64,000 nt of DNA, taken from NCBI RefSeq assembly GCF_016065055.1, contig NZ_CP065856.1:1735836-1799835 (forward strand), given 5' to 3'. The number at the start of each line of letters is the position of its first letter. Position 1 is the first letter of the stretch. Shown here in pieces: positions 35,342-54,545 of the stretch. Under the pieces are notes generated by a model. It had not been told where the DNA came from and ran no database searches. It was given only the letters and a program-made list of their open reading frames with translations. Both the position numbers and the translations under genes were made by a program. Source of the DNA: Halosimplex litoreum (GTDB lineage: Archaea > Halobacteriota > Halobacteria > Halobacteriales > Haloarculaceae).

Positions 35342-35563
35342 TCACTGCGTGGTCGGCAGGTACAGTACGACGTAGGTCATGAACAGGAACCCACAGATAC
35401 CGAACCCGACGAGATAGGCGACCGGGCCGAGCGACGCGACCGCACTCACCGCTCGACCGACGGCCGCGGCCGGGTTCGAGGCGCTGATCGGCGGTCCGAC
35501 GACGAGCACCAGGGCGACGACGACGAGCGCTACGTCGAACGCGTCGCGCTCCGCGAGGGCCAT
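35342..35563 (-). CDS. Two-helix membrane peptide, 73 aa
   Basis: Hydrophobic helices lie at about residues 8-27 (ALVVVALVLVVGPPISA) and 45-68 (GPVAYLVGFGICGFLFMTYVVLYL). The ATG at 35563 is chosen; a GTG 18 nt upstream would add six residues. It is too short for a confident family call, but the gene has haloarchaeal codon use and lies alone. Function unknown. Confidence 0.6.
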   Translation of the reverse strand: MALAERDAFDVALVVVALVLVVGPPISASNPAAAVGRAVSAVASLGPVAYLVGFGICGFLFMTYVVLYLPTTQ

Positions 35564-35635
35564 CGACCGGACACTCGGCACCCGCCCCCATAGACCTCAC
35601 GACCCGCCCGGTCGACCACCGGAAACCACCCGCCG

Positions 35636-35644
35636 TTATGTATC
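35636..35644 (+). promoter_or_regulatory. TATA-like box upstream of the palindrome-controlled gene
   Basis: TTATGTATC centred 28 nt before the ATG at 35668, consistent with a leaderless start directly at the end of the 18-bp palindrome. Confidence 0.55.
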
Positions 35645-35650
35645 ACCGCG

Positions 35651-35668
35651 TTTTAGGTATACCTAAAA
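35651..35668 (+). promoter_or_regulatory. Perfect 18-bp palindrome, DtxR/IdeR-like operator
   Basis: TTTTAGGTATACCTAAAA is perfectly self-complementary. Its core, TTAGGTnnACCTAA, resembles operators of metal-responsive DtxR/IdeR/MntR-type repressors described in bacteria and haloarchaea. Its last A is the first base of the ATG at 35668, so a bound repressor would cover the transcription start of a leaderless mRNA. The exact regulator is inferred. Confidence 0.75.
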
Positions 35669-36528
35669 TGATCGGACGAACGCTGACGGACATCAGGGCG
35701 GAGCTGGAGGAGCTCGCCGACGCGTCGGGGGAGTACCACGTGCAGTGCGGGCGGACGGGCGAGCGACCGGTGCCCGTCGACGGTCGGCGGTTTCCCGACC
35801 GCGAGACGGCGGTCCAGGCGGTACGGGTGGCCCACGCCTACCGGGCGACGCTCCGGCGGTACGACCCGCGCGCGCCGTGGTACGACTTCGTGGTCTGCGA
35901 AGCCGACACGGGCCCGGCGGGCGACCGGGGGTGGTCGTTCCCGCCGACCGCGGCGGGCGAGTCCCCGTCCCAGCGCGCGCTGGTGGCCTACTGTCACGAC
36001 CTGGCCGGCGCGGTGTTCGAAGCGCTGTCGGCAAGCGACCACGCCGGCGTCGAGCGCGCGGTGATGGACGAGTACCTCGCCGCCGCCGAGCGGACGTCCG
36101 ACCGTGACCGCCTCTGTCTCCAGTTGCTCACGACGATGGCGACCGAACTGCAGTCGCGCCTGCCCGAGCAGGCCCGCGCCGAGACACTCCAGCGCGCCAG
36201 CGCGCACCTCCCCGCCACCGAGGGGAGCGCGCGTCCCGTCCGCGCAGCCCTCGCACACCTCCGGTCGGTCGGACTGATCGACGGGTTCGCCCTCGCCGAC
36301 GGCCACTGGGACCGGCCCCGAGCGGTGACCGTCCGGGGCTACGAACTCCGCTCGTGCGGGGAGCGCCTGCCGACGCTCCCGCTCTCGACCGAGACGGTCC
36401 GACGCACCGCCGGCCGTCCCCGCGTCGCCACAGCCGCAACGCCCGTCGACGACGGCTGGCGCATCCGGGTCTCCCGAACCGACCCCGCCGCCGGCTCGCT
36501 CGACACCGCGACGCCGGTGGACAGTTGA
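35668..36528 (+). CDS. Haloarchaeal protein of unknown function under a palindromic operator, 286 aa
   Basis: It begins MIGRTLTDIRAELEELADASGEYHVQCGRTGERPVPVDGRRFPDRETAVQAVRVAHAYRATLRRYDPRAPWYDFVVCE, a pattern found repeatedly in haloarchaeal proteins without a known role. The second half is helical (VERAVMDEYLAAAERTSDRDRLCLQLLTTMATELQ), and the tail is beta-like (GWRIRVSRTD). No membrane span. An in-frame ATG at 35638 would place the palindrome inside the gene, so the ATG at 35668 with its TATA box 28 nt upstream is preferred. Metal control is likely if the palindrome is a DtxR-type site. Confidence 0.75.
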   Translation: MIGRTLTDIRAELEELADASGEYHVQCGRTGERPVPVDGRRFPDRETAVQAVRVAHAYRATLRRYDPRAPWYDFVVCEADTGPAGDRGWSFPPTAAGESPSQRALVAYCHDLAGAVFEALSASDHAGVERAVMDEYLAAAERTSDRDRLCLQLLTTMATELQSRLPEQARAETLQRASAHLPATEGSARPVRAALAHLRSVGLIDGFALADGHWDRPRAVTVRGYELRSCGERLPTLPLSTETVRRTAGRPRVATAATPVDDGWRIRVSRTDPAAGSLDTATPVDS

Positions 36529-42202: not shown

Positions 42203-43723
42203 GTGACGATGCAGCCCGACCCTGATCCCTCCCCGGACGCCTCGCGCAGACGACTCCTCCGCGCGGTCGCCGGCCTCACCGTCGCCGGCGGTCTCGCCGG
42301 ATGCAACCAGAGCGGCGACGGCACCGACGGCTCGCCCGCTCCAGCCGAGAGCGATACGTCCGCCCAGAGCGCGACGACCGCGGCGACGACCGCGCCGCCG
42401 ACCGACCCCCCGACGGCGACAGTCACGCCGACCCCCACGCAGACCGCGACGGCCGCGCCGACGCCGGCCAGTCGGTCCGTCGCTCGCGAATTCGTCGCCC
42501 ACCTCCGGGCCGGCGAGTTCGACGCCGCCCACGCCATGGGGACCGGCGAGCTCGCGTCGACTCTCCCGCAGTCGACCCTCGAACGGCTCTGGCTCGGCCT
42601 GCTGGCCCAGCACGGCGCCGTCGAGTCGACGGGGTCCGTCGAAACGACGACCCGTGACGGCTCGACGGTGTTCGTCGTCCCCGTCGACTGCGCGGAAGGG
42701 TCGGCACGGGTCGAACTCGGCGTCGACGCCGAGGGCCGCGTCGGTGGTCTGTGGTTCCCCGCCGAGTACCGCTCGCCCGACTACGTCGAGGACGCGGCGT
42801 TCACCGAGCGGACGCTGGCCCTCGAACCCGAGGGCTGTACGCTCCCGGCGACGCTGACGGTCCCCGCCGGCGCGGGCGGCGGTTCCGGGACGGCGACCGC
42901 GACGGACTCCAGTACGGTCCCGGGCGTCGTCCTCGTCCACGGCAGCGGCGCCCACGACCGCGACGAGACGATCGGCCCGAACAAACCGTTCCGCGACGTC
43001 GCCCAGGGACTCGCCACCCGCGGCGTCGCGGTGCTGCGCTACGCCAAGCGCACCTACGCCTGTGACGTGCCCCGCGACGAGTGGGCCATCGACGACATCG
43101 TCGTCGACGACGCCGTCCACGCACTGGGCGTCCTCCGCGAGCAACCCGAGGTCGACCCAGAGCGGACCGCCGTCGCGGGCCACAGCGTCGGCGCGGCCTG
43201 CGCGCCCCGGATCGCCGAGCGCGACGGACGGGTCGCCGGCGCGGCCGTCCTCGCCGGCAACGCCCGCCCGTTCACCGAGGTGTATCCCCCGCAAGTGCGA
43301 CACATCTTCGAGGTGCAGGGCGGGCTCTCCGCCCGCGAGCAACAGCAGCTCGCCGCGGTGAAACAGCTGATGACTGCCGTCGAGAACGGGTCCGTCGCCG
43401 ACGGCCGTCCCATCGGGCCACTGCCGGGGGTCTGGTGGAAGACCTTCTCCGAGTACGACCAGGTCGCGACCGCGAACCGGATCGACGCCGCCCTCCTGTT
43501 CGCCCACGGCGGGCGGGACTTCCAGGTCCCGATCGACCCGGCGATGACGGGCTGGCGGGACGGACTGGACGACTCCAGTGCGGCCCGCTTCGAGCGGTAC
43601 CCCGACCTGTCGCACCTGTTCCAGCCCGGCGCCGAGCCGTCGCTGCAGACGGAGTACACCTTCGCCGACAACGTCGCCCGCGAACTGGTCGTCGACCTCG
43701 CCGACTGGACGACCGGACTGTAG
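42203..43723 (+). CDS. Exported alpha/beta-hydrolase lipoprotein
   Basis: 506 aa. The N-terminus ASRRRLLRAVAGLTVAGGLAGC is a twin-arginine signal with lipobox. A long Thr/Pro/Ser-rich linker (residues 45-90, like a glycosylated stalk) and a DUF3887-like domain (90-200) follow. The hydrolase shows VLVHGSGAHDRDE, the nucleophile in VAGHSVGAACAPR, the acid in FAHGGRDFQVP and the His in DLSHLFQPG. It should sit on the outer face and hydrolyse an ester or amide. The GTG at 42203 or ATG at 42209 are both possible. Confidence 0.87.
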   Translation: MTMQPDPDPSPDASRRRLLRAVAGLTVAGGLAGCNQSGDGTDGSPAPAESDTSAQSATTAATTAPPTDPPTATVTPTPTQTATAAPTPASRSVAREFVAHLRAGEFDAAHAMGTGELASTLPQSTLERLWLGLLAQHGAVESTGSVETTTRDGSTVFVVPVDCAEGSARVELGVDAEGRVGGLWFPAEYRSPDYVEDAAFTERTLALEPEGCTLPATLTVPAGAGGGSGTATATDSSTVPGVVLVHGSGAHDRDETIGPNKPFRDVAQGLATRGVAVLRYAKRTYACDVPRDEWAIDDIVVDDAVHALGVLREQPEVDPERTAVAGHSVGAACAPRIAERDGRVAGAAVLAGNARPFTEVYPPQVRHIFEVQGGLSAREQQQLAAVKQLMTAVENGSVADGRPIGPLPGVWWKTFSEYDQVATANRIDAALLFAHGGRDFQVPIDPAMTGWRDGLDDSSAARFERYPDLSHLFQPGAEPSLQTEYTFADNVARELVVDLADWTTGL

Positions 43724-52739: not shown

Positions 52740-54545
52740 ATGAGTTCATCAGACATCGTCGTGGAGGGTCTGACGTTCCAGTATCCCGGGGGCGACGAGC
52801 CGGTGTTACGCGACGCGAACCTGCGGATCGAGCCGGGCGAGTTCACGGCCGTCGTCGGCGGCAACGGCAGCGGCAAGACCACGCTGTGCAAGACGTTCAA
52901 CGGACTCATCCCCCACTTCTTCGAAGGTCGGTTCGACGGGCGCGTGTCCGTCGCGGGTACGGACACCCGCGAGTCGGACGTGGCGGACCTCTCCCGGACG
53001 GTGGGGTACGTCTTCCAGGACTTCGAGAACCAGCTCGTCCAAGAGACCGTCCGCGACGACGTGGAGTTCGCGCCCCTCAACTACGGCCTCGACGACTACG
53101 CCGAGCGGGCGACCCGCGCGCTCGAGCTCGTCGGGCTCGACCACCTCGACGACCGGTTCGTCTGGGAACTGTCGGGCGGCCAGCAACACCTCGTCGCACT
53201 CGCGGGCGTGCTCGCGATGGACCCCGAGTTCGTCTTCGTCGACGAGCCCGCCGCGCAGCTTGACCCCCAGAACGCCCGCGAGACGTACGAACAGCTCCGG
53301 CGGCTCCACGAAGACCACGACAAGACGGTGATCGTCATCGAGCACCACTCGGAGTTCATCGCCGACTACTGCGAGGAGATGGTCCTCGTGTCGGACGGCG
53401 GCGTCGCCTGGAAGGAACCGGTCGAGATCGGCCTCAACAGGCTCGACGACCTGGCGGCCCACGATATCCACCCGCCACAGGTCACGGGGATCGCCGCCGA
53501 CCTGCCCACGGGGGCGGGCCGGCTGTCCGACGGACGCTACCCCGTCACCGTCGGCGAAGCGGCCGAGGCGTTCCCGTCGCCCGGCCGCGGTGAGCAACCG
53601 CGGGCGGCGGACGGCGGCTCCGACCGGGGGTCGTCACCGGGCGACGGCAGCGACGCCCCGCTGGTCACGCTCGACGGCGTCGGCCACGGCTACCCGACGC
53701 TCCGCGAGGGGTACAACCGCGTTCTCGACGGCGTCGACCTCGACCTCTACGCGGGCGACCGGGTGGCGCTGGTCGGTGCCAACGGCGCCGGCAAGTCGAC
53801 GCTGTTGCGGCTGGTCACCGGCCTCGAATCCCCCGACGAGGGAACGGTGACGGTGCTCGGCCAGGACACGAGCGAGACGCTCCCCGAGACGCTGGCCGAC
53901 GACACCGTCTACATCCACCAGAACCCCGAGGAGATGTTCGTCGAGGATACCGTCCGGAAGGACATCGGCTACTACCTGAAAAACCGCGGCGACCCGGACG
54001 TCGACGAGCGCGTCGACGAGATCGTCGACTACCTCGATCTCGAGGAGTTCGCGGACCGCGACGGCCGCCTGTTGAGCCTCGGCCAGCAGCGTCGCGCCTC
54101 GCTGGGGATCGGCCTGGCGACCGACCCGACGGTCGTCCTGCTGGACGAGCCGACCGGGAGCCTCGATCTACAGAGCCGCCGCGAGGTGACCGGGATGCTC
54201 CGGAAGGCCGAGAGCCGCGTCGAGACGGTCGTCATCGCCTCCCACGACCTGCAACTGGTCGCCGGCTGGGCCGACCGCGTGGTCGTCATGGGTGAGGGCG
54301 AGGTGCTCGCCGACGCCCCGCCCGGCGTCGTCTTCGACGACCCCGACCTACTGGCCCGGACCGGCCTGCGTCGCCCACAGGTCGTCGAACTGAGCGACCG
54401 GCTCGGCGTCGCTCCGGCGGCGCTGACCGCCGACGAACTGGTCGGTCGCCTCTCCGGCGACGCGCCGACCGAAGCCCGTGCCGACGGCAGGGGGGGCGGA
54501 CGCCGCACCGACGGCGAGGCGACCGGGGGAGGCGACCGGCGATGA
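52740..54545 (+). CDS. ECF transporter ATPase, two fused ABC domains (EcfA-EcfA')
   Basis: 601 aa. The first ABC domain has Walker A GGNGSGKTT (40-48), signature LSGGQQHLVALAG and Walker B FVFVDEPAAQLD. The second has GANGAGKST (about 345), signature LSLGQQRRASLGIG (an altered LSGGQ) and Walker B VVLLDEPTGSLDL. A Ser/Asp-rich linker joins them. Fused ATPases power group II ECF transporters for vitamins or metals. The gene ends overlapping the EcfT start by 4 nt (ATGA). Confidence 0.92.
   Translation: MSSSDIVVEGLTFQYPGGDEPVLRDANLRIEPGEFTAVVGGNGSGKTTLCKTFNGLIPHFFEGRFDGRVSVAGTDTRESDVADLSRTVGYVFQDFENQLVQETVRDDVEFAPLNYGLDDYAERATRALELVGLDHLDDRFVWELSGGQQHLVALAGVLAMDPEFVFVDEPAAQLDPQNARETYEQLRRLHEDHDKTVIVIEHHSEFIADYCEEMVLVSDGGVAWKEPVEIGLNRLDDLAAHDIHPPQVTGIAADLPTGAGRLSDGRYPVTVGEAAEAFPSPGRGEQPRAADGGSDRGSSPGDGSDAPLVTLDGVGHGYPTLREGYNRVLDGVDLDLYAGDRVALVGANGAGKSTLLRLVTGLESPDEGTVTVLGQDTSETLPETLADDTVYIHQNPEEMFVEDTVRKDIGYYLKNRGDPDVDERVDEIVDYLDLEEFADRDGRLLSLGQQRRASLGIGLATDPTVVLLDEPTGSLDLQSRREVTGMLRKAESRVETVVIASHDLQLVAGWADRVVVMGEGEVLADAPPGVVFDDPDLLARTGLRRPQVVELSDRLGVAPAALTADELVGRLSGDAPTEARADGRGGGRRTDGEATGGGDRR

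Follow-up and report, generated by a model that had tools for sequence, protein, structure and literature searches.

The site analysed here resembles two described systems, the operators of the regulators IdeR and DtxR and the FerR/TroR iron regulon of haloarchaea. One IdeR dimer binds a half-type site, and the 14-bp sequence TTAGGNNNNCCTAA has been proposed as the redefined consensus of a single dimer (PMC8464063). The FerR/TroR regulon of haloarchaea was described by Leyn and Rodionov 2015 and Martinez Pastor et al. 2024, as cited in PMC11349517. The same paper reports a FerR signal ahead of every fhu gene in Haloferax and the induction of several of these genes by iron starvation, and it refers to three DtxR regulators that act in iron homeostasis in this genus (PMC11349517). 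In the literature searched, to which the published regulon tables do not belong, no statement was found that names a DUF7552-DUF7551 protein as a FerR/TroR target, and no literature on DUF7551 was found in the papers searched.

The window, the whole stretch of 64,000 nucleotides of Halosimplex litoreum DNA that was analysed, contains a palindrome at the start of a gene for such a protein. The palindrome is very probably an operator site of the iron regulon that DtxR-family proteins control in haloarchaea (FerR/TroR), through which the gene would be repressed when iron is sufficient.

The palindrome and its promoter

The features of the locus, in window coordinates, are as follows.

35636-35642, plus strand: TATA-like box TTATGTA, read from the sequence; similar boxes occur in congeners and in other genera
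35651-35668, no strand assigned: predicted operator, palindrome TTTTAGGTATACCTAAAA, with a core usually flanked by T and A; from motif counts and congener alignment
35668-36528, plus strand: putatively controlled gene for a 286-aa protein with DUF7552 (N-terminal) and DUF7551 (C-terminal); from the ORF and a domain search, with the start from congener alignment
35342-35581, minus strand: divergent 79-aa ORF, conserved in part of the genus; from the ORF list and relatives

The sequence TTTTAGGTATACCTAAAA is a perfect 18-bp palindrome that was read exactly at 35651-35668. As the preliminary description had claimed, its final A is also the first base of the ATG that opens the 286-aa ORF. Within three mismatches it has a single place in the window and none in 100 shuffles. 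The 14-bp core TTAGGNNNNCCTAA (TTAGG-N4-CCTAA) matches exactly at 35653-35666. Among the 30 five-base arms that permute TTAGG, searched in the layout arm-N4-arm', TTAGG alone occurs in the window, once, at the operator.

In an alignment of seven orthologous loci of the Halosimplex group (the source genome and six others), the arms are identical and lie directly before the ATG, so that the target site is conserved before the orthologues. The central four bases at these loci are TATA, CACA, TAGG, CATG, CCAG, CCTC, and TCAC. Because the middle four bases differ among congeners, the symmetric centre GTATAC lies outside the signal, and the informative part of the palindrome is the 14-bp core, not the whole 18 bp. 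In an eighth genome assigned to the genus (G005), the only homologue is divergent, and it follows a siderophore-binding gene that has one-mismatch sites. A base table of 142 distinct sites has a T before and an A after the core, with a mild inner preference.

A second perfect 18-bp palindrome, CTCGGCGTCGACGCCGAG, is present at 42716-42733 of the window; it is GC-rich and unrelated to the motif. Perfect symmetry was ruled out as the signal on account of this second palindrome and the unconserved centre. The DtxR-family form claimed for the site in the preliminary description holds for the core; neither the inner T/A nor perfect symmetry is needed. At the locus the classical 19-bp two-dimer DtxR operator TTAGGTTAGSCTAACCTAA is not matched, and the 14-bp form alone is found.

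The TATA-like box lies approximately 28 bp before the ATG, which is the spacing expected of leaderless haloarchaeal transcription and agrees with the leaderless distance proposed earlier. The transcript would start at or near 35668. The start codon of the 286-aa ORF is backed by the congener alignment. A 296-aa alternative beginning at the upstream in-frame ATG at 35638 was rejected, as that codon is not conserved: one congener lacks it, and another has it in a different frame. The operator is located approximately 70 bp upstream of the divergent 79-aa ORF, and control of this ORF by the same operator is possible but less likely.

Sites and candidate regulators in the genome

The source genome, a single Halosimplex contig of 4.158 Mb, was covered by a pattern search and fetched stretches. 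It contains 15 copies of TTAGGNNNNCCTAA versus none of the reversed control, and the totals for 37 genomes of the family are 367 versus 47. At most of the 15 sites, the core is 0-11 nt away from a plausible start codon. The start-codon position is therefore typical of the regulon and not special to the DUF gene. The motif, for which random scattering had been named as the finding that would speak against it, is not randomly scattered: most exact copies adjoin a start codon, in many cases that of an iron-acquisition gene.

The genes at the 15 sites were called from the fetched stretches, and representative ones were scanned with Pfam. By position and sequence, five siderophore-binding lipoproteins adjoin sites, and the three of them that were scanned all match Peripla_BP_2. 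Sites also adjoin a FecCD permease, an SBP_bac_6 protein with its permease (a ferric-type ABC transporter), a helix-turn-helix regulator with a Fe_dep_repress domain, and a PAS-histidine kinase with a partial DUF7551 match. Further neighbours are a metallo-beta-lactamase-fold protein, a GMC-type FAD oxidoreductase, and a glycosyltransferase-like (RGP) protein, and some of the site-adjoining genes have no obvious role in iron metabolism. One-mismatch sites are found near a ferritin/Dps-like gene, near a NifU-like gene, and before an operon that we take, from its sequence and not from a profile scan, to be sufCBD. The DUF7552-DUF7551 gene and genes for siderophore and ferric uptake in this genome thus bear the same site.

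The start codon of the PAS-histidine kinase (409 aa, partial DUF7551 at the N-terminus, source genome 2904739-2905968, locus L054) abuts the exact site. A 408-aa DUF7551-bearing relative is encoded in genome G032 (contig C67, near 52760), with a site adjoining at 52789. It is possible that the DUF7551-bearing kinase is an iron-regulated sensor. Another exact site, at 1549367 of the source genome (L053:3868-4380), abuts the ATG of a 58-aa ORF, which is followed by a gene for an Amphi-Trp-like protein and then by a convergent ferritin/Dps-like gene. The 58-aa ORF may be a small iron-regulated gene.

A functionless chance palindrome would fit the observation that symmetry alone is not rare, given the second perfect 18-bp palindrome at 42716. 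However, that explanation is already contradicted by the motif counts against controls, the co-regulated genes, and the order-wide conservation, and its probability is negligible.

Three proteins of the source genome have a well-scoring Fe_dep_repress domain; they are convincing DtxR homologues, the lack of which had been stated in advance as a ground for abandoning the proposal.

About 3797.4k of the source genome (G000): full-length DtxR-type protein with Fe_dep_repress, the best DtxR match
3401k: shorter DtxR-type protein with Fe_dep_repress, directly after the apparent suf operon
505k: DtxR-type protein with Fe_dep_repress and a site in its own promoter

Their relatives in the PDB include MntR, IdeR, DtxR, ScaR, and SloR. 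An operator of another regulator family with a similar palindrome is very improbable, in view of the exact agreement with the IdeR single-dimer consensus, the iron-related gene content, and the DtxR-type genes encoded in the genome.

By comparison with the gene order of Haloferax, the 3401k protein is presumably TroR-like (by its position after suf), the full-length protein SirR-like, and the 505k protein Idr-like, and the three would then be the corresponding orthologues. TroR is reportedly the main one of the three Haloferax DtxR regulators. The best candidate for the acting regulator would be the TroR-like 3401k protein, whose gene follows the apparent sufCBD operon. The same operator could instead be served by the SirR-like full-length protein at about 3797.4k or by the short Idr-like protein at 505k, with Mn(II) or both metals as the signal. 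In favour of this, the full-length protein gives the best DtxR match and is similar to both IdeR and MntR models, and the 505k gene bears a site in its own promoter; however, the site-adjoining genes encode siderophore and ferric transporters, not manganese transporters, and the three DtxR regulators cited for Haloferax in PMC11349517 act in iron homeostasis. This alternative is judged unlikely.

The DUF7552-DUF7551 family

A family search across the order found DUF7551 above the cut-off in 90 of 195 sampled genomes. The exact site is located upstream in 21 of 30 fetched loci, for each of which a short stretch was examined. At 80 named DUF7552-DUF7551 loci, whose nearest matches are Halosimplex species, 6 kb upstream were searched; 78 loci have an exact site in this range and two have none. 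Altogether, the 80 loci contain 130 exact sites in 468 kb upstream versus 22 in 525 kb downstream, and none of the reversed control. The site is positioned at the ATG (-15 to -18) in 19 of the 80 loci. In other genera it is usually 40-400 bp or further upstream, or before the preceding gene; several Haloferax species have it at -86/-87. The comparative evidence is strong and argues that the family is a core, order-wide target of the iron regulon. Sites are often paired at a distance of 35-37 bp, with a smaller class at 26 bp (for example in L134, L149, and L183, and at 1367645 and 1367681 of the source genome), which suggests two dimers flanking a TATA box.

The protein is uncharacterised, and in searches of Pfam, NCBIfam, and PDB nothing beyond DUF7551 and DUF7552 was matched by sequence. 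No signal peptide or membrane segment is apparent. Residues that are near-invariant over 81 sequences include Cys109, His110, Phe117, Glu118, Glu129, Tyr136, Ala140, Cys150, Tyr225, Pro238, and Trp264. The AlphaFold2 model of the whole protein is confident (pLDDT 87, pTM 0.67), and that of the DUF7551 domain alone has pLDDT 90 and pTM 0.87. A fold search with the whole protein and with the DUF7551 domain returned no PDB or viral structure at E < 0.001. Among the leading weak matches of the domain are soluble guanylate cyclase (6jt0_B), YslB (3njc_A), and TRAPP subunits; the best scores are an E of 0.05 and a TM-score of 0.38. These matches belong to a single superfamily, whose domains bind small ligands or act as scaffolds. 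The trend of the predicted fold towards H-NOX, YslB, and TRAPP is consistent but weak, and may serve as a lead only. Among 56 members, no H-NOX, V4R, or TRAPP Pfam match was obtained at E up to 10, nor was there a PDB profile match.

Within 6 kb of the 80 loci, a siderophore-binding protein gene is found at 28, a DUF7260 gene at 25, FecCD at 13, and a thioredoxin-reductase-like flavoprotein at nine; in some genera the DUF7552-DUF7551 gene is next to genes for siderophore-binding proteins and this flavoprotein. An obligate partnership with either is not supported, since the siderophore-binding gene is directly upstream in only 11 of the 80 loci and the flavoprotein gene in three. DUF7260 proteins are encoded behind the same sites in several genera (L065:6077-6877, L068:7404-8207, L075, L077, L080, and L085), and in two genera the DUF7260 gene overlaps or directly follows the DUF7552-DUF7551 gene. 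DUF7260 is likely another uncharacterised member of the regulon. Site-bearing siderophore operons also contain genes of HEAT-repeat proteins with a C-terminal zinc ribbon (L071:11975-12979, L073:3731-4924, L080, and L084).

Tentatively, the DUF7552-DUF7551 protein may be an unrecognised haloarchaeal iron-acquisition or iron-sensing protein. It would be iron-repressed and apparently cytosolic, with a helical domain, possibly H-NOX/V4R-like, that carries the near-invariant Cys109, His110, Glu118, Glu129, and Cys150. The ligand of the protein could be a metal, a tetrapyrrole, or a siderophore, and the protein might take part in releasing or sensing imported iron.

Proposed control and comparison with known systems

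We infer that a DtxR-type regulator binds the core, that its metal is iron, and that it represses rather than activates a leaderless transcript. Under iron sufficiency, a DtxR-type dimer loaded with Fe(II) would occupy TTAGGNNNNCCTAA. The predicted operator closely follows the TATA box and covers the presumed leaderless start and the first base of the ATG. Because it fills the stretch between the box and the start, the bound dimer should block initiation, and RNA polymerase would be unable to start. Under iron scarcity, the repressor would lose its metal and leave the site, and the DUF7552-DUF7551 protein would be produced along with siderophore-binding proteins and the ABC transporters that serve them. 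Blocking at the start codon itself would not be universal, as the site has another position in most other genera.

Of the two metals proposed for the link to the protein, iron is very probably the right one rather than manganese, because the co-regulated genes belong to siderophore and ferric transport. DtxR-family regulators (Idr/TroR) can act both ways in haloarchaea, and on that ground the bound protein might activate the DUF gene when iron is sufficient. Activation is improbable, however, since the site lies between the TATA box and the start, where a bound protein should hinder the polymerase, and is common to uptake genes, several of which are starvation-induced in Haloferax according to PMC11349517. 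Iron-dependent repression is therefore the best reading, from the IdeR 14-bp consensus (PMC8464063) together with the FerR signal and the iron-starvation induction of several fhu genes in PMC11349517.

A DUF family of nearly half of the sampled genomes would in this way be tied to iron homeostasis by a near-ubiquitous signal. The arrangement would be a compact form of archaeal control, in which one repressor-dimer site over a presumably leaderless start is repeated across the regulon. A protein without a known function or a close solved fold gains a clear first experiment.

The H-NOX/V4R/TRAPP/YslB superfamily is among the best fold matches of the confident DUF7551 model, but all scores are weak and come without a sequence relation. 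The site shares with the IdeR/DtxR 14-bp consensus (PMC8464063) an identical 14-bp string, in which the middle four bases vary freely and which also emerged from the congener alignment. Unlike that system, the predicted Halosimplex operator is combined with an archaeal TATA-type promoter and a start-codon position. With the haloarchaeal FerR/TroR regulon, as described in PMC11349517, the source genome shares a signal before siderophore ABC transporter genes and the presence of DtxR-type regulators. The kind of element and the haloarchaeal FerR/TroR regulon were already known; to these the analysis adds order-wide evidence for the membership of the DUF7552-DUF7551 family.
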